Source of the DNA: Fluctibacter halophilus
GTDB taxonomy: Bacteria > Pseudomonadota > Gammaproteobacteria > Enterobacterales > Alteromonadaceae
NCBI RefSeq assembly: GCF_020687825.1
Contig: NZ_JAJEWP010000001.1
Span: forward strand, 296,078 to 360,077
Direction of reading: 5' to 3'
Length of the DNA stretch: 64,000 nucleotides
Shown: in pieces, positions 2,924 to 56,105 of the stretch
Numbering within the stretch: the first letter of the stretch is position 1
How the letters are laid out: the number at the start of each line of letters is the position of its first letter
The notes under the pieces: generated by a model
Told to the model about the DNA's origin: nothing
Seen by the model: only the letters and a program-made list of their open reading frames with translations
Database searches by the model: none
Position numbers and translations under genes: made by a program

Positions 2924-3041
2924 TGGTTTGCCTCTGTCGGTTGCGTTCAGGCAGGTTAAACCCGTTACCTATAGACGGGTAAAGGCCTGTTGCCGACATC
3001 GGGCGGTGACGTCTGTTCAGAGCCTTGGATTACACACAAAA

Positions 3042-3067
3042 AAACACCGCGGCAATGCGCGGTGTTT
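3042..3067 (-). terminator. Rho-independent terminator of the PEP-CTERM gene
   Basis: A perfect 10-base stem (AAACACCGCG with CGCGGTGTTT) has a 6-base loop at 3052-3057. On the minus strand it is followed by a run of T residues (the A-run at 3037-3044 on the plus strand). It lies about 20 bases past the stop of the minus-strand PEP-CTERM gene. Confidence 0.85.
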
Positions 3068-3088
3068 TCATGTCAGAGGTTTATTGGA

Positions 3089-3841
3089 TTAGCTTTTACG
3101 GCGCGCCAGGCTACCGAAAGCCAACAATCCCAGACCCATCAGTGCCAGACCGCTTGGCTCAGGAATGGAGTTACCTTTCAAGTCAAAGGTACCGTTCAGC
3201 AAGCCAGGTGCACCGTCAGTAGGCTGGAACGAAGAGGTCAGGGTCAGGTCGCCACCGGCTGCCTGAGTGTTGGTGTCGAAGTTACCCATGGCCAAGCCAC
3301 CGATAACGTCCAGTACACCAGAACCTGTACCTTGGTCTGAACCACTACCCAGAGCGATACCCGTACCAGTCAGCAAATTGCTGGGATTCAGAACCAGTTC
3401 TAACCACAGATTCCCGTCAGCGGCTGAAGCCATGGTGCCGTCAAACTCTGGAGAATGGTCGACGAAAAACTTAATATTTAAGTCTTTAAATGCGAACGTA
3501 CCGTCTACACCGCCGAGAGCCAGGTTTGGTACACCGACGAAATCTGCTGCCAACTCCATAGAGAAGGTAAAGGTTAATTCACAACCCGGACAGAAGGAGC
3601 CAGTGTTTGGCACTGCGCTGTTGATCTGGGTTACTTGACCACGACCTGTTACGATGTCCCCGGCGCTTACAGCCCCGGTTTCGAAAATGGTGCCGTTGGC
3701 AACAAAATCCGCCAGGCTTGGGAAAGCCAGGGTTTGATCAGGGTCCCAGGTAACACCACCGACATTTACTGGTGACGCCATTGCGCTCATTGAGAAACCC
3801 AATGTTGCGGCACCGATCAGAAGAGATTTTTTGAAGTTCAT
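3089..3841 (-). CDS. PEP-CTERM sorting domain-containing exported protein
   Basis: The 250-residue protein has a Sec signal peptide (MNFKKSLL through AMASP, cleaved near residue 22). A beta-rich central region is rich in Gly, Asn, Asp and Thr, with two Cys at CPGC. The C-terminal PEP-CTERM tripartite signal is complete: PEP at 227-229, a hydrophobic helix 231-245 and a basic RRKS tail. Such proteins are cleaved and anchored or released by an exosortase (EpsH/XrtA) and usually belong to exopolysaccharide or floc matrix. No exosortase gene lies in this window. A sigma-54-type promoter precedes the gene and a strong terminator follows it, so it appears monocistronic. The cargo function is unknown. 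Confidence 0.93.
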   Translation of the reverse strand: MNFKKSLLIGAATLGFSMSAMASPVNVGGVTWDPDQTLAFPSLADFVANGTIFETGAVSAGDIVTGRGQVTQINSAVPNTGSFCPGCELTFTFSMELAADFVGVPNLALGGVDGTFAFKDLNIKFFVDHSPEFDGTMASAADGNLWLELVLNPSNLLTGTGIALGSGSDQGTGSGVLDVIGGLAMGNFDTNTQAAGGDLTLTSSFQPTDGAPGLLNGTFDLKGNSIPEPSGLALMGLGLLAFGSLARRKS

Positions 3842-4044: not shown

Positions 4045-5091
4045 CTAGCGAAGCAGACTTTCCAGTGGACGACGACCGCTGCGAACCGGCACAGAAGACT
4101 GTATACCGAGACGGAAAAACATCACCGGGTGTTGGCCCTGTGGCGCGATGTCGTGCAGGTCTTGGCGTGTCTGCGCCAATGTATTGCGCAGCGTCTCAGG
4201 CAGGTCCGGGTTTGCCAGTGTGAGCACACCTGGCGCAGCGTAAGGGTGTACGGCAAGGCCCAGCGCTGTTGCCTGTAGCCAGAAACGCTGAATCTGACGT
4301 CCACATTCCACTAAACCGGCAAAGCTCTGATCAGCCGTACTGATATACGCAATGGCGGGGGAGAGCTTCATTGGTAATGTCACCGAGCGCATCGCGATGC
4401 TCTGATGGGTACCCAGCAGGTTGAGGGTCTTCATCACCGACCAGCGGCGAATCCAACGGAAAAAGGGCCGCGCAGGGGGTTCGATGCCGAGCACTTCCAG
4501 GCTCATGCCCTGCGCCGGACTGGCCTCGTCAAAGCTAACCGTGCTGAATAGCTCCTCGTGCAGTGTCGGATCCTGAAACCTGACCGCTTCGGCTCGCCGA
4601 ACGATAGGGATCAGACGGGCTTTATCGGCTTTGTCTGTGAACACCTCACAATGGCCATTATTATTGCTGATAACGCTTTTCAGCCCGTCGATCTGTACTT
4701 GGGTGACAGGTCCTTTGAACGGAAAGCGCCGGTCGGTATGCCGCTTTGCGATCTGTTCTTCGAGTAAGGCGTCCTGCGCTGTCAGAATATCGGTGGACTG
4801 GGGCGTGAAGACAATGTCGATACAGCGGGCGTCCGCCTCGGCGTGAATGGCGATGTCACTTTGCCAACCAAACGTCGCAGCACTCAGGCGTGCGTTCTCC
4901 AGTGCTGCGCCCATGGCCAGGGCGGTCAGAACGTAGGTCTTGTCAGTGGCTTTACCACTGTGATCAGGATCGTTGCTTATCTGCAGATGGTTCGGAGACG
5001 ACCAATGCAATGTCCAGGGAATAGAGTTGTCAGCGGAAGGCGCCCAGCGCGCACTTTCTGAGATCCGTTGTTGTTGTTGATTCAAAGTCAT
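4045..5091 (-). CDS. Nitroreductase-fold (Acg-like) flavoprotein
   Basis: The 348-residue protein starts with the Acg/nitroreductase N-terminal motif SARWAPSADNSIPW, which normally contacts FMN. It has the duplicated half typical of the long Acg group (KRHTDRRFPF near residue 136) and the C-terminal LVECGRQIQRFWLQATALGLAVHP helix of the nitroreductase fold. Long Acg-like members often lack classical NAD(P)H-dependent nitroreductase activity and may bind or store flavin. The gene starts 9 bases after the ThiF-like gene stops, so the two are surely co-transcribed. An E1-like enzyme next to a flavin oxidase fold recalls azole-forming peptide pathways, but no YcaO cyclodehydratase is present. The substrate is unknown. 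Confidence 0.8.
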   Translation of the reverse strand: MTLNQQQQRISESARWAPSADNSIPWTLHWSSPNHLQISNDPDHSGKATDKTYVLTALAMGAALENARLSAATFGWQSDIAIHAEADARCIDIVFTPQSTDILTAQDALLEEQIAKRHTDRRFPFKGPVTQVQIDGLKSVISNNNGHCEVFTDKADKARLIPIVRRAEAVRFQDPTLHEELFSTVSFDEASPAQGMSLEVLGIEPPARPFFRWIRRWSVMKTLNLLGTHQSIAMRSVTLPMKLSPAIAYISTADQSFAGLVECGRQIQRFWLQATALGLAVHPYAAPGVLTLANPDLPETLRNTLAQTRQDLHDIAPQGQHPVMFFRLGIQSSVPVRSGRRPLESLLR

Positions 5092-5100
5092 GTTGTCAGG

Positions 5101-5973
5101 TCATTCAATACCGAAGGCAGCTTTCGCTTCGCGAAGACGCTGCTGAAAAGTGGGGTTTTGGTGGCCGTGTGGGATGTGGGTAATTTCCATCTTGTTCAGG
5201 TACGGATCCCAATGGGTTCCCCGAGGGGCGGCAATGACATCACCCCGACCCAGCATGAGTTTTATGGCCTGAGCGGCTGCTACACCGGCACTCATGGTAC
5301 AGCCAATAATGGTTGAAGGGCCGCGTTTTTCGGCCAGGTTGAGCCGGGTAGGGTCAACCAGGTAAGCTGATTGCAGTCCTGCTGGCGCGAGACCAAGGTA
5401 GAAGCGCAGGAACTGTTCCTCCAACGAGGCGCCTTGCATGCCAAAGTAGTCTTCAAAGCTCATCTGGCCGGGCAGAAAGGCGAGAAATGCGGTACCCATG
5501 CCCAGGGGTGCGGCGGTGATGGCGGGAATATTGCGCTCGTAGCAGCGCGCAAACACCAGTTTACGCGCTTCGATGGCAAAGAAATCGAGGCTGTCGATAT
5601 AGACATCCACGCCGTCTAGAAAGGCATCAACGTTATCGCCGTTAACCCCTTGCTCGTAGCATTGAATACCGGCATCGGGATTAATGTCACGAACCATTTG
5701 CAACATGACGTCGAGTTTTGGCTGGCCAATCGTGTTCATATTGGCACCCACCTGACGGTTAAAATTTTCGACACCAAAGGCATCAAAATCTGCCATCCGG
5801 TAGTGGCCCACGCCCAGGCGGGCCATCGTCAAGGCATGGATACCACCAACCCCACCGCAACCGGCAATAGCGACCACTTTGTCTTTCAGTGACCGCTGTT
5901 CCTGCTCTGTCAGCCAGCCGATATTGCGTGAAAACGCCTTGTCGTAATCAAAGGGTTCGAGTGTCATAACCAT
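5101..5973 (-). CDS. ThiF/MoeB/HesA family adenylyltransferase
   Basis: E1-like enzymes adenylate a carboxylate, often the C-terminus of a ubiquitin-like protein. The protein has the Rossmann ATP-binding loop AGCGGVGG (residues 37-44), the following acidic MADFDAFGVENFNRQ block (about 60-74) with the conserved Asp and Asn-Arg, and a late GCTMSAGVAAAQAIKLMLG helix (about 225-243). The paired CxxC zinc motifs of MoeB/ThiF are absent, so it is not a standard MoeB or ThiF. No ubiquitin-like partner or rhodanese domain is encoded next to it. Its start codon overlaps the stop of the upstream acyltransferase by one base (TAATG), indicating translational coupling. The substrate may be a small acid or acyl-amino acid; this is inference. 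Confidence 0.85.
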   Translation of the reverse strand: MVMTLEPFDYDKAFSRNIGWLTEQEQRSLKDKVVAIAGCGGVGGIHALTMARLGVGHYRMADFDAFGVENFNRQVGANMNTIGQPKLDVMLQMVRDINPDAGIQCYEQGVNGDNVDAFLDGVDVYIDSLDFFAIEARKLVFARCYERNIPAITAAPLGMGTAFLAFLPGQMSFEDYFGMQGASLEEQFLRFYLGLAPAGLQSAYLVDPTRLNLAEKRGPSTIIGCTMSAGVAAAQAIKLMLGRGDVIAAPRGTHWDPYLNKMEITHIPHGHQNPTFQQRLREAKAAFGIE

Positions 5974-6743
5974 TAACCTGATTGTTTGTAGTGGAAGGGG
6001 TGTAGTACGAGCTGTTCACGCAATTGGTTTTCCAATAACTGATAAAGCTCGAGTATTTCCACACTTAAATCAGAGGTCAGGCGTTCATGTTCAAGCACGA
6101 ACAGCGCTCGGATCCCGTGATAATCCAATTCCTCGCCACATTGGGTAAAATTGAGCCCCAGGCGACCTAAGCGTTTCTTCAGCCGAGGCTCGACCACCAC
6201 AAACATGTGCGAGTGATTGCACATCTTCACCATGGCGATAACACTGAGATAGAGGCCGATGGCGATGTTAGGGAAGTTACGCCGTTCTTCTTCAGAGAAT
6301 ATGTCACCGCTGCTCATCTCATTGATGACAAAAGGTTTGTGTTGCTCATCCAAACGGCGACGGAAGCTGTTGGGCACCGAAAGGCGGGATATTTCACCGA
6401 ACGCACCACGTTGCAAGTGGTCTGGATTGACGACGTCTCGTTGGATGGTTTCTTCGCAATGTAACTCGAACGGAAGTTTCGCTTCAGGATTGTGCGGTGG
6501 TGGCACCACCAGACGTACGGTGCCCGCATAAGCACCTGTGCGCTTATGTTCCAGCAACAAGGGATGTGCATAATCATCACATTCGTCGACTTCCAGGCCG
6601 GAAGGCTGAGTTGGCTCCCAGCCCAGTTCCTCTGAGTAAACCATATGTCGGATACGGTAAGACTCTTTCCTGAGTTCTTCCGTGTTGGCGACCTTTATCG
6701 CAAAGTACTTATCAAAGTTTTCTGCTAATGAAAAAGCTTGCAT
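5973..6743 (-). CDS. PEP-CTERM/exosortase system-associated acyltransferase
   Basis: The protein resembles the GNAT-like acyltransferases found beside exosortase loci (TIGR03694 type), which are related to acyl-homoserine-lactone synthases and N-acyl amino acid synthase FeeM. It opens with NFDKYFAIKVANTEELRKESYRIRHMVY, where the Arg-rich helix and Y-SEELG segment are diagnostic. Further blocks are AGTVRLVVPP, GEISRLSV and the late HMFVVVEPRLKKRLGRLG. I chose the ATG at 6743; a TTG at 6785 would add 14 residues not expected for the family. It is translationally coupled to the ThiF-like gene. It probably transfers an acyl chain from acyl-ACP to an amine, by family analogy; the product is unknown. 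Confidence 0.85.
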   Translation of the reverse strand: MQAFSLAENFDKYFAIKVANTEELRKESYRIRHMVYSEELGWEPTQPSGLEVDECDDYAHPLLLEHKRTGAYAGTVRLVVPPPHNPEAKLPFELHCEETIQRDVVNPDHLQRGAFGEISRLSVPNSFRRRLDEQHKPFVINEMSSGDIFSEEERRNFPNIAIGLYLSVIAMVKMCNHSHMFVVVEPRLKKRLGRLGLNFTQCGEELDYHGIRALFVLEHERLTSDLSVEILELYQLLENQLREQLVLHPFHYKQSG

Positions 6744-6851
6744 GTGGTGATCACTCTTTACACCGCTTGCGGTGATGGGTTCCAAAACCGTTATTTTTAT
6801 TATCCTGCTACCTGAGCAGATATCGGTAACTAATTCAAGTATATAAGTTAT

Positions 6852-7715
6852 TTAGCCGCATTGGTGAAGTAAATCGAGTTTTTTCGGCAAATAGGCCATG
6901 GCGGCCTGATAGCCGTCCTGATAGAGCAGTTTCTTCTGTTCTTCGGTCATTGAAAAGTCCACCGAAGACAGGGTGCCTGTGTCTACCACAATGGTGTTGT
7001 GCCAGTGTTCAGCATGCACATACTCCCGTGACAATGCGGTCATGAAGGTGCGAATGAGCATAAACACAAATTCCGGCAATTGGAAAAAGGCCTGGCGCTT
7101 GCGTAGGGTGGTGACCTGCTGGCTTTTCAGTCGAAAGCACACATTGGGTGTGTTGTCCCCCGCCCAGTTTCGGAACAAGGCGTCTTCTGACAAAATCGCC
7201 CCATCCACCAATACGTGAGACTTGTAAGGTTTAAAACTGAACACCAATGGAATGGACATGGAATAGCGTACCGCTTCGGAAATTTTCATCTCAGGGCTGG
7301 TGTGGCGGTTGAAAATGACCGGGCCACCACCGTTCACATCGGTGGCGACAATGTTAAGGTTCATTGACAGGTCGCAAAAGCGTTGGCCGTCCAGTTGGCG
7401 ATCCATCCAACGTTCAAATTTGACCCCATCACTCAAACCTCCATCCCGCAACAACTTGAAAATCGAATAGCCGCGGAATTGGCGAAAATCGGTGTCGAGG
7501 GCCAGTGTCATGATGCTGTCGAGGGAATGACCGCAACTGTAAAGCGCCGAGACGATGGAACCACCCGATATACCCACCACATGGTCAAAGGTCAGGTTTA
7601 ATTCATTCAGGGCTGCGAAAATGCCAATGTGAGCAGGCAGTCGGGTGCCGCCGCCCGAAAAAATCGGCACGATGGCGCGGGTTTGTTCAACAAAGGGGGC
7701 AGATGATAGTGTCAC
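6852..7715 (-). CDS. Patatin-like phospholipase
   Basis: The protein is a patatin-fold serine-aspartate lipid acyl hydrolase of 287 residues. It has the oxyanion loop GGGTR at 21-25, the nucleophile elbow GISGG with Ser50, and the catalytic Asp171 in VDGA. The size fits cytosolic bacterial patatins. There is no signal peptide. It starts with GTG at 7715 and lies about 110 bases upstream of the acyltransferase on the same strand, so it could be the first gene of that cluster and supply or recycle acyl chains from membrane lipid. I saw no sigma-54-type site upstream of it. The catalytic call is sure; the link to the pathway is inference. Confidence 0.9.
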   Translation of the reverse strand: MTLSSAPFVEQTRAIVPIFSGGGTRLPAHIGIFAALNELNLTFDHVVGISGGSIVSALYSCGHSLDSIMTLALDTDFRQFRGYSIFKLLRDGGLSDGVKFERWMDRQLDGQRFCDLSMNLNIVATDVNGGGPVIFNRHTSPEMKISEAVRYSMSIPLVFSFKPYKSHVLVDGAILSEDALFRNWAGDNTPNVCFRLKSQQVTTLRKRQAFFQLPEFVFMLIRTFMTALSREYVHAEHWHNTIVVDTGTLSSVDFSMTEEQKKLLYQDGYQAAMAYLPKKLDLLHQCG

Positions 7716-7807
7716 GATGGCGATAAAAAATCTGGTGCTTAATGATCCAAGTATGGTTCAATTTAGTCATTGTGTATGCATTCCTTGTGACAGGTACAAA
7801 TCAACAC

Positions 7808-8578
7808 ATGGTCAAACTATCGAAATTAACAGGCTGGCTGTTGAGCGCCATCTGTGTGACACAACTGATGTCACCCGCCTTTGCAACCTCGTTTGTAGAT
7901 GTCGTCAAAACACTGAAGCCGGGTGTGGTGGGCGTGGGCATCTACGACCCGCTCGGGACGCCCCGAGTGCAGTTGCTGGGAACCGGATTTGTGGTACCAC
8001 CCGGAAACCTTATTGCGACAAACCAGCACGTAGTGAATAAAGCCCTGAGTCAAGACTCAAAACAGTCCTGGGCGGTATTTGCCGGACATGGCGAAAGGCC
8101 GAGGGTGCTGGTCAGCACGATCGTGGCAACGGATGAAGAGCATGATCTTGCCCTGTTGAAAATGGATGTTACCTTGACACCATTGACGCTCGGCGCTGAT
8201 ACGCCATTGCCGGATGGCAGCGATATCGCCATTACCGGGTTTCCGATTGGCAGTGTTTTGGGGCTGTATCCGGCCACACACAAGGGCATTGTGGCGGCAT
8301 ATTCGCCCGTTGCCATTCCCACCGTGCATTCCCAGCAACTGGATGTGGCGATGCTGAAGCGATTGCGCGACCCCTTTATGGTCTACCAGCTGGATGTGGT
8401 CGCTTATCCCGGTAACAGTGGTAGCCCGGTGTATAATGTGCATAATGGACAGGTCGTCGGTATCGTTAACAAAGTGTTTGTCAAAGGCACCAAAGAAACG
8501 GCGTTGACGGACCCCAGCGGGATTACCTATGCAATACCGGTTAAGTATTTGAAAGATATGCTTAAAAATGACTATTAG
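7808..8578 (+). CDS. Periplasmic trypsin-like serine protease
   Basis: The 256-residue chymotrypsin-fold protease has a Sec signal peptide (residues 1-27, ending AFA-T). The triad is visible: His74 in TNQHVV, Asp113 in EEHDLALLK and Ser204 in GNSGSPVY. This matches the DegP/HtrA-type protease domain, but no PDZ domain follows, so it is a stand-alone S1C-like protease. I chose the ATG at 7808 because it is directly followed by a proper signal peptide; the upstream ATG at 7742 would create an unusual N-terminal extension. It is divergent from the patatin gene and precedes the Tat-exported protein of the HPr-rel-A cluster by 140 bases. It may process exported proteins; its target is unknown. Confidence 0.87.
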   Translation: MVKLSKLTGWLLSAICVTQLMSPAFATSFVDVVKTLKPGVVGVGIYDPLGTPRVQLLGTGFVVPPGNLIATNQHVVNKALSQDSKQSWAVFAGHGERPRVLVSTIVATDEEHDLALLKMDVTLTPLTLGADTPLPDGSDIAITGFPIGSVLGLYPATHKGIVAAYSPVAIPTVHSQQLDVAMLKRLRDPFMVYQLDVVAYPGNSGSPVYNVHNGQVVGIVNKVFVKGTKETALTDPSGITYAIPVKYLKDMLKNDY

Positions 8579-53594: not shown

Positions 53595-56105
53595 ATGAGA
53601 CGCACAACACAACGTTCAATGCTGGCATTGGCGGTAACGGCTGCCCTAACGCTGAATGGGTGCTCAGGTGATGATGGCGCCAAAGGTGCCGATGGTTCTG
53701 ACGGCGCACAGGGGCTGGTCAGCTTGCTGCTGCAGACGCCCTTGTATGCTGGCAATGAACAGTGTTTCGATGGTGGTACCCGGGTTGATTCGGGGCTGGA
53801 CAGCAACAACGATGGTGAGCTGGCCAGCGATGAAATCACTCAGACCAGCTATCTGTGCAATGCCACTGCGCTGAATGAGGCAATGAATTTCAATCGTATC
53901 GCCAGCTTCCCTGTGTGTCTGCAACTGGACCCAAGCTGTAATGTCGATACTGAAACCGCAGCCGAGATCGCGGCAGTCAATGATGATGGCACCGTGGTGG
54001 TGTACACCGACAGTCCTCTGGAAGTTGTCGGGTTTGTCGATATCAACGATCCAGCCAACCCACAGGCGCTGGGAACCGTGGCACTGAACGGTGAGCCTAC
54101 CTCTGTGGCGGTAAAAGGCGCTTATGCCCTGGTCGGCGTTAATACCTCAGCGGATTACATCAATGTCAGTGGGGCACTGGCCGTCATCGATATTGCCAGC
54201 CAGACAGAAGTGACCCGACTGGACCTGGGCGGGCAACCCGATTCTGTAGCGGTATCACCGGATGGCCAGTTTGCCGTCATTGCAATCGAAAACGAGCGAG
54301 ATGAAGACTTGGGCGATGGCGCGCCACCGCAGATGCCAGCCGGGACCCTGGCGATCGTTGACCTGAGTGGGACAACACAAGAATGGTCGGTGAGCTTTGT
54401 TGACATGACCGGTCTGGCGGACTTGTACGGTGATGATCCTGAGCCGGAGTACGTGGACATCAACAACGACAATATCGCGGTAGTGACCCTACAGGAGAAC
54501 AACCACATTGTGCTGGTTGACCTGCAGGACGGCAGTGTGCTGAACCACTTCAGCGCCGGTGCAGTGGATTTAACCCAGGTCGATACCGAGGAAGAAGAAG
54601 CGTTTATTTCCCAGACCGACAGTCTGTCAGGTGTTCTGCGTGAGCCGGATGGGGTGACCTGGTTGTCTAATGACTACTTTGTGACGGCCAATGAAGGGGA
54701 TCTGGACGGTGGTTCACGGGGCTTTACTGTGTTCAATACTGCCGGCGATGTGATCTATGAGGCGGGAAATACCCTGGAGCATCTCACGGCCCGCGTTGGC
54801 CATTATCCCGATGAACGCTCAGGCAACAAAGGCAATGAGCCGGAGAATGCCGAGTTTGGTGTGTTTGGTGACGAACGTTACCTGTTTGTGAACGCTGAAC
54901 GGGCCAGTCTGGTATTTGTTTACGACGTAGCCGATTTAACCCGTCCGGTGCTTAAGCAGGTACTCCCGGCAGCAACGGCACCTGAGGGGGCGCTGGCGAT
55001 CCCATCGCGCAATTTGCTGGTGGTGGCCAGTGAGGAAGATAACCGTGGCGACAAGCAGCGTTCAGTATTGAATATCTATGCCTACCAGAACGCCGCTGCA
55101 ACGTATCCCACCGTGCAGTCTACGGATCGCACCGATGGTACGCCAATCCCCTTTGCTGCATTGTCAGGTCTGGCTGCGGGAGAAGGCGAGACCTTATGGG
55201 CGATTGAAGACAGTTTCTACCTCAGCAACCGTATCTTCCGCATCGATACCGCTCAGACCCCGGCATCGCTGAACCAGGAAATTCGAATTACCGATAGCAA
55301 TGGCGTTCTGGCTGCGTTGCCGGTGGTTAATCTGGCAGACAACAGCGTGGATGAGGATGACGCTACCCGTGTCAGCGTGTTTGACAGTGCTGACCTGGCT
55401 GCGATGATCAATGCCGACAATACGGTCAATATTGATCCTGAAGGTATCGCAGTGGCCAGTGATGGCGGTTTCTGGATCGCCTCTGAGGGGGCAGGTACCC
55501 AGGGTGACAGCAGCCGTCCCATCAACAGCTTGAATCTGTTGCTGAAGACCTCTTCGCAAGGGGAGATTGAGCAGGCAATTACCCTGCCGGATGCGGTCAA
55601 TGCACAACAGGTGCGGTTTGGCTTTGAAGGTGTGGCTGAATACAACGGCAAAGCCTATGTTGCGTTCCAGCGTGCCTGGAACGGTGAAACTCAGCCCCGT
55701 ATTGGTGTATATGATACGGCGACGCAAAACTGGCAGTTTTTCTTCTACCCTCTTGACGGGGTTGCGTCGCAAAACGGTGGCTGGGTTGGGCTGTCAGACC
55801 TGACCTCGTTGGGCGATGACCGCTTTCTGGTTCTGGAGCGAGATAACCAGGGCGGGCCGGATGGCGCGATCAAGCGCATTTATGAGATTGACACCAATGG
55901 TGTTGCCAGTGGTCAAACCCTGACCAAAACCCTGGTGCGTGATCTCGTCAGTGACCTGACCGCTACCGGCGGACTGGTGGCTGAAAAGGTTGAAGGTCTG
56001 GCACGGTTGAGTAATGGCGACGTGTACATCATTAACGACAATGACGGTGTCGACGGTGTATCCGGGGAAATCCGCCTGATCAATCTCGGCCCTATCGCAA
56101 ATTAA
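53595..56105 (+). CDS. Phytase-esterase-like beta-propeller lipoprotein
   Basis: The 836-residue protein is a lipoprotein (lipobox LNGC, Cys23). Directly after it comes a short collagen-like run of G-x-y (25-40) and an EF-hand-like DSNNDGELASDE with flanking Cys (DUF7151-like, about 50-90). Two propeller-like regions follow: an LVGVNTS/LDLGGQPDSVAVSPDG-type YVTN repeat (about 100-330) and a C-terminal domain of the 'esterase-like activity of phytase' type (about 520-830) with FGFEGVAEYNG and LLVLERDN-like segments. It is likely exposed at the cell surface. It may hydrolyse phosphate esters, but the active residues are not evident. AAAAAGGAAA precedes the ATG. Confidence 0.8.
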   Translation: MRRTTQRSMLALAVTAALTLNGCSGDDGAKGADGSDGAQGLVSLLLQTPLYAGNEQCFDGGTRVDSGLDSNNDGELASDEITQTSYLCNATALNEAMNFNRIASFPVCLQLDPSCNVDTETAAEIAAVNDDGTVVVYTDSPLEVVGFVDINDPANPQALGTVALNGEPTSVAVKGAYALVGVNTSADYINVSGALAVIDIASQTEVTRLDLGGQPDSVAVSPDGQFAVIAIENERDEDLGDGAPPQMPAGTLAIVDLSGTTQEWSVSFVDMTGLADLYGDDPEPEYVDINNDNIAVVTLQENNHIVLVDLQDGSVLNHFSAGAVDLTQVDTEEEEAFISQTDSLSGVLREPDGVTWLSNDYFVTANEGDLDGGSRGFTVFNTAGDVIYEAGNTLEHLTARVGHYPDERSGNKGNEPENAEFGVFGDERYLFVNAERASLVFVYDVADLTRPVLKQVLPAATAPEGALAIPSRNLLVVASEEDNRGDKQRSVLNIYAYQNAAATYPTVQSTDRTDGTPIPFAALSGLAAGEGETLWAIEDSFYLSNRIFRIDTAQTPASLNQEIRITDSNGVLAALPVVNLADNSVDEDDATRVSVFDSADLAAMINADNTVNIDPEGIAVASDGGFWIASEGAGTQGDSSRPINSLNLLLKTSSQGEIEQAITLPDAVNAQQVRFGFEGVAEYNGKAYVAFQRAWNGETQPRIGVYDTATQNWQFFFYPLDGVASQNGGWVGLSDLTSLGDDRFLVLERDNQGGPDGAIKRIYEIDTNGVASGQTLTKTLVRDLVSDLTATGGLVAEKVEGLARLSNGDVYIINDNDGVDGVSGEIRLINLGPIAN

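Follow-up and report, generated by a model that had tools for sequence, protein, structure and literature searches.

What do four adjoining genes of Fluctibacter halophilus make, and do they make it together? The 64,000-nucleotide stretch of DNA analysed here (the window) encodes, on the minus strand between positions 4045 and 7715, an Acg-like flavin-dependent oxidase of the nitroreductase superfamily, a ThiF-like adenylating cyclase of the PRK08223 subfamily, an N-acyltransferase of the N-acyl amino acid synthase type and a patatin-like lipid hydrolase. The first-pass annotation read them as one lipid or small-molecule pathway with no described precedent. This novelty does not stand, as three of the four parts (N-acyltransferase, ThiF cyclase and flavin oxidase) already form a described pathway. 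By analogy, and with a probability of roughly 0.8, the cluster would make a lipid of the acyl-oxazolone or N-acyl-2,3-dehydroamino acid class, a reading that covers its reactions, substrates and product and that we favour because homologous gene sets make such lipids (PMC10404671, PMC12856293).

The arrangement first noticed in the sequence was present in full: four minus-strand genes, a TAATG in which the acyltransferase stop (gene at 5973-6743) overlaps the ThiF start (5101-5973, 290 amino acids), and nine bases (5092-5100) between the ThiF stop and the ATG of the oxidase (4045-5091, 348 amino acids). The three functions of the oxazolone route thus adjoin within 4045-6785, and the patatin gene (287 amino acids) lies at 6852-7715. 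The acyltransferase frame is open from a TTG at 6785; since homologues begin at the second methionine, the start is probably the ATG at 6743 (256 amino acids) rather than this TTG.

In the described pathways, TyzA, TyzB (a ThiF protein) and TyzC (a flavin oxidase) make acyl-oxazolones by N-acylation from acyl-coenzyme A (acyl-CoA), cyclisation dependent on adenosine triphosphate (ATP) and O2-dependent desaturation (PMC10404671), while TrzA and the fused TrzS carry out like chemistry (PMC12856293). According to PMC12856293, acid and methanol cause losses of the product. Clusters of a synthase, a ThiF protein and a nitroreductase have also been proposed for the thalassotalic acids, kyonggic acids and stieleriacines (PMC12479983). 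The first-pass annotation had deduced N-acylation, activation by an E1-like enzyme and flavin oxidation from the letters, and these are the reactions, with ATP-dependent activation and cyclisation, shown for the homologous gene sets of PMC10404671 and PMC12856293. As in the window, tyzACB of Mycobacterium tuberculosis encodes three separate proteins, including a flavin oxidase from a group to which Acg belongs, but tyzA lies on the opposite strand, the host is of another phylum and the likeness is one of description (PMC10404671). The oxzAB genes of the gammaproteobacterium Pseudoalteromonas rubra (via PMC10404671 and PMC12856293) supply the acyltransferase, ThiF and oxidase functions, again alike by description, but with ThiF and oxidase fused. 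The trzAS genes (Rv1356c/Rv1355c; PMC12856293) also differ in being fused, and in M. tuberculosis their substrates are tryptophan and short chains. Over its full length the window oxidase aligns with the C-terminal half of NF005901, the NCBIfam model of the fused Rv1355c family, although the window proteins score below its cut-off of 476 (oxidase 151 bits, ThiF 64.2 bits). A second NCBIfam model, NF011425, unites the three functions in one chain, in which positions 83-223 match a FeeM-type synthase, 312-580 the window ThiF and 619-802 the window oxidase.

Each of the three proteins was assigned on its own evidence. The acyltransferase scores 238 bits against TIGR03694 (cut-off 111.95), which makes it a member of the exosortase-associated acyltransferase family, and its predicted structure (mean predicted local distance difference test score, pLDDT, 89.7) matches those of FeeM, an N-acyl amino acid synthase, and of acyl-homoserine-lactone synthases. 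Score and structure matches together identify an N-acyltransferase of the LuxI/FeeM fold, a type that the first-pass annotation had described as associated with exosortases and related to acyl-homoserine-lactone and N-acyl amino acid synthases. Residues R46, E65, D70, R91, E131, S133 and R134 are invariant in all 34 aligned sequences, and we take their roles to be those of their counterparts in LuxI enzymes. The same genome encodes a second TIGR03694 acyltransferase (L002:1429-2208; G000:C13:21399-22025), 31% identical to that of the window, which stands alone, with no ThiF frame beside it within 3.6 kb.

The ThiF-like protein scores 136.3 bits against PF00899 and 385.5 bits against NF006077 (PRK08223; cut-off 266). 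Its G38-G43 motif, D62, R73, K86 and D130 are invariant in 24 of 24 sequences and are presumably ATP-site residues, as in E1 enzymes; score and residues mark it as a ThiF-like enzyme that retains this site. The oxidase is more divergent from the family models, with 24.1 bits against PF00881, barely above the cut-off of 23.5, and 152.3 bits against NF047509 (Acg family oxidoreductase binding flavin mononucleotide, FMN), below the cut-off of 199, a model that another gene of the same genome matches at 246.5 bits. Its predicted structure (mean pLDDT 93.3) matches the Acg homologue 2ymv with a Z-score of 31.5 over 297 residues, the next entry reaching 16.6. This model places the oxidase in the Acg-like flavin oxidase group, with FMN binding predicted. 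Two observations bear on the residues mutated in TrzS (D217, R540 and Q651): D130 of the window ThiF is invariant, and the window oxidase has HP at the QP motif of most oxidases, a site that may or may not correspond to Q651. Around residue 282 most aligned oxidases carry QP, whereas the window protein and those of L030, L052 and L053 have H before P or L.

A search of genome contigs with a ThiF alignment returned at least 528 loci, of which the best 80 (the named loci) were annotated and therefore sample the vicinity of the window's own type; a single-sequence search of the same contigs, unlike the alignment search, gave no match. One of the named loci, L056, comes from Thalassotalea sp. PP2-459, the source of the thalassotalic acids (PMC12479983). 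It encodes patatin, acyltransferase, ThiF and oxidase in the order and strand of the window, with identities to the window proteins of 57, 52, 58 and 38%, respectively. As in the window, a divergent protease and then the patatin lie upstream, and acyltransferase, ThiF and oxidase are adjacent. The Thalassotalea locus differs in the exosortase-type acyl-CoA ligase (TIGR03098) and decarboxylase (TIGR03099) between patatin and acyltransferase (L056:4273-7091), which could supply acyl-CoA or amine, and a scan of its 16.8 kb found no PEP-CTERM gene or PrsT. On gene order and identity, the window cluster is likely an ortholog of the known producer's cluster. The order patatin-acyltransferase-ThiF-oxidase-PEP-CTERM is repeated in an uncultured Paraglaciecola (L052) and an uncultured member of the Alteromonadaceae (L053), with identities to the window of 71 and 70% for ThiF, 67 and 74% for the acyltransferase and 45 and 49% for the oxidase.

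Gene content was also compared across 59 relatives, one per genus, with the window's own genome counted here as in every sample. ThiF occurs in 24 of them, a TIGR03694 acyltransferase over cut-off in 32, an exosortase over cut-off in 35, patatin in 23 and the oxidase (at least 354 bits) in eight. The ThiF, patatin and oxidase genomes all fall inside the 32 acyltransferase genomes, and all four sets are subsets of the 35 with an exosortase. None of the 24 ThiF genomes lacks a TIGR03694 gene within 6 kb of its ThiF, and in 17 the two are on the same strand and less than 200 bases apart, a neighbourhood that exceeds chance. The first-pass annotation had staked its proposal on conservation of the neighbourhood in other genomes, and conserved it is, with acyltransferase and ThiF as a steady pair and the oxidase as an optional member. 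All eight strong oxidases (354-493 bits) adjoin ThiF or are fused to it. The oxidase profile (A1) was built from these same eight sequences, all first seen beside ThiF, and their hits are therefore by construction; beyond them no gene in the 59 genomes exceeds 65 bits, and matches of 48-64 bits occur in G014, G016, G018, G045 and a second gene of the window's own genome.

ThiF-oxidase fusions account for 21 of the 80 named loci; in another 46 the oxidase lies within 200 bases of ThiF (67 together), and in one it is farther away. The profile detected an acyltransferase in 46 loci, 27 of which have it within 200 bases of ThiF. The threshold for these annotations was E 1e-5, which admits oxidases of 102-159 bits (L074, L081, L091, L115 and L118) and acyltransferases down to 23-63 bits; the PEP-CTERM flag is a rough pattern, and several loci are short contigs. 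On a ThiF tree of 102 rows, 74 of them with an oxidase in the locus (L029 and L031, of the same length as L054 and L078, are left out), the oxidase label changes nine times with a midpoint root, against a shuffled mean of 24.9. Because 22 of the 28 oxidase-free rows lie inside one clade of 26, the tree suggests that the oxidase was lost in that clade. The idea of the oxidase as a late addition was dropped, given the few changes and the concentration of the absences.

The oxazolone-class reading builds on these families, folds, conserved residues and gene orders and on the likely orthology to the producer's cluster. In the proposed route, the acyltransferase would transfer a fatty acyl group, carried by CoA or acyl carrier protein, to an amino acid at its amine, with tyrosine and phenylalanine as the likeliest substrates. 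At the cost of ATP, the ThiF-like protein would adenylate the carboxylate and the amide oxygen would close on it to give an oxazolone (azlactone), while the flavin oxidase would use O2 to introduce alpha,beta-unsaturation, cyclisation and oxidation occurring in either order. The product would be an acyl-oxazolone or, with the ring hydrolysed, a thalassotalic-type N-acyl-2,3-dehydroamino acid. The patatin would be a lipid hydrolase encoded next to these enzymes in the same exosortase-linked unit.

Several observations weigh against this reading. The oxidase is missing from 16 of the 24 ThiF-positive relatives and was not found in 12 of the 80 named loci, and 34 of the 80 have no acyltransferase by profile, although L090, the one checked, has a FeeM-type synthase beside ThiF. 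The window oxidase is only 16-25% identical to 22 of 30 other aligned oxidases; the ThiF of L054 is 66% identical to the window's, yet the L054 oxidase only 16%. The likeness of the window proteins to OxzB, TyzB and TrzS is one of families and descriptions. Finally, no oxazolone was seen in the thalassotalic, kyonggic and stieleriacine families, whose producer clusters were assigned mainly through genome comparison, according to the available text of PMC12479983.

The fourth gene separates the oxazolone-class reading from a pathway of all four. The patatin scores 95.1 bits against PF01734 (cut-off 27.7), which places it in this family, and its GGGTR, GISGGS (GxSxG) and VDGA (DG) motifs are intact. 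Its 23 genomes among the 59 relatives all contain the acyltransferase and an exosortase, and 17 contain ThiF. Because it follows acyltransferase and exosortase more closely than ThiF, we do not count it as an oxazolone step; these distributions indicate that it is probably a lipid hydrolase neighbour in an exosortase- and acyltransferase-linked unit, outside the oxazolone route. The first-pass proposal of a single pathway with the patatin as a member lost ground for the same reason, and one obligate four-gene pathway was rejected, as neither patatin nor oxidase keeps in step with ThiF. That all four genes nonetheless form one pathway, in which the patatin would free fatty acids from membrane lipids for the acyltransferase, is improbable. 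The match ends of the two genes are 133 bases apart in the window and under 300 bases apart in 10 of the 23 patatin genomes, but patatin occurs without ThiF in six of the 23, is absent from seven of the 24 ThiF genomes and is near ThiF in just 11 of the 80 named loci. Moreover, the known homologous acyltransferases take acyl-CoA, so a supply from the patatin would also need a ligase, and none lies between these window genes. The pathway descriptions in the available parts of PMC10404671, PMC12856293 and PMC12479983 do not include a patatin.

Two further explanations dispense with a shared lipid product of this kind and carry little weight. That the genes merely share an exosortase and exopolysaccharide region while doing separate jobs would fit the varying gene order among relatives and the separate losses of patatin, oxidase and ThiF; the fusions and overlaps, and the position of all eight strong oxidase matches next to ThiF, make it very improbable. 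We give still less credence to an E1-like action of ThiF on protein or peptide C termini, with the flavin protein unrelated: the ThiF protein does match E1-type enzymes over the ATP-binding part, but the ThiF-oxidase fusions and the three-function model NF011425 tell otherwise, and N-acyl amino acids are the substrates of the homologues (PMC10404671, PMC12856293). General family scans named no YcaO or ubiquitin-like protein among the 30 window proteins, no search aimed at these having been made.

The link with exosortases deserves more attention. In a class sample of 229 genomes, 21 have the ThiF subfamily over cut-off and 67 an exosortase, with 20 shared (Fisher test, 3.5e-11, relatedness ignored), and G156, the sole ThiF genome without an exosortase, has an assembly of about 560 contigs. 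Of the 35 genomes in the window's own family, 21 have both, none ThiF alone, seven an exosortase alone and seven neither (p 0.00051, again ignoring relatedness). In 19 of the 24 ThiF relatives ThiF and an exosortase are no more than 60 kb apart, many loci are beside PrsT, exosortase or PEP-CTERM genes, and a PEP-CTERM gene like the window's lies downstream of the oxidase in L030, L052, L053, L084 and L106. The window's own genome encodes an exosortase A (329.5 bits, cut-off 208; locus L132) about 54 kb from ThiF, beside an XrtA-system deacetylase and an XrtA-associated FemAB protein. L032 and L034-L037 contain acyltransferase and ThiF without the oxidase, in exosortase-type loci beside PrsT and nucleotide-sugar genes.

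These associations, complete among the 24 ThiF relatives, would fit a cluster devoted chiefly to the exosortase A/PEP-CTERM system, for which acyltransferase and ThiF would make an activated N-acyl aminoacyl group destined for sorted proteins or exopolysaccharide, free lipids being by-products, and acyltransferase-ThiF pairs without an oxidase do exist. Nevertheless, ThiF is missing from 11 of the 35 exosortase genomes among the relatives and from 47 of the 67 in the class sample, and an exosortase therefore does not need it for sorting. No adduct is known, tyz and trz are known from actinobacteria, and the available text of PMC10404671 and PMC12856293 does not mention exosortases; we consider such a main role unlikely. 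In a more specific and similarly doubtful form, the acyltransferase-ThiF pair and the patatin would be a lipid branch of this system with the ThiF azlactone as activated donor. Without an oxidase the lipid would pass to an amine or hydroxyl, on the exosortase acceptor of cleaved PEP-CTERM proteins or on exopolysaccharide, and with one, part of the donor would be diverted to a stable dehydro lipid.

On the oxazolone-class reading, the window cluster mainly adds one more conserved case to a pathway already described, and a known producer probably has its ortholog; what most merits further work is the association of ThiF and patatin with exosortase. The window shares with the TIGR03694 family an acyltransferase over cut-off and an exosortase in the genome, and adds ThiF, oxidase and patatin. 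The title of Craig 2011 names only the synthase in connection with PEP-CTERM and exosortase. That link of the N-acyl amino acid synthase was published in 2011 (cited in PMC4897644). In the openly licensed literature we found no paper linking ThiF or patatin to exosortase, none on exosortase together with patatin, and only unrelated uses of PEP-CTERM together with oxazolone. Two questions stand open in the literature: the nature of the new group that substrates bear after exosortase action (PMC11980579) and the physiological role of oxazolones, which PMC12856293 ranks as a major unresolved one. A ThiF subfamily and a patatin nearly confined to the exosortase genomes sampled join these two questions, and both are deletable genes with which to test them.

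The PEP-CTERM gene of the window (3089-3841, minus strand; PF07589, 24.3 bits, cut-off 20.7) encodes a candidate exosortase target. A terminator-like hairpin of 12 pairs with a T tail lies 3' of it (3040-3069, minus strand); such hairpins are weak as a class, since six sites were found in the region against 5.9 expected by shuffling, and a promoter scan of the region gave one match against 3.5 expected. On the other side of the cluster, the divergent trypsin-like protease (7742-8578, plus strand; PF13365, 86.2 bits) recurs beside the cluster in relatives. An 836-amino-acid protein at 53595-56105, possibly another surface protein, matches choice-of-anchor I in part (143.9 bits, below the cut-off of 300). 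Between 8718 and 11749 the window encodes a 255-amino-acid protein with a start like that of twin-arginine translocation substrates, a 94-amino-acid protein with a sub-threshold winged-helix match, an HprK-related kinase A (TIGR04352, 315.1 bits) and an NTP_transf_5 protein; HprK- and NTP_transf_5-like genes are also near ThiF in eight of the 80 named loci and in several relatives.

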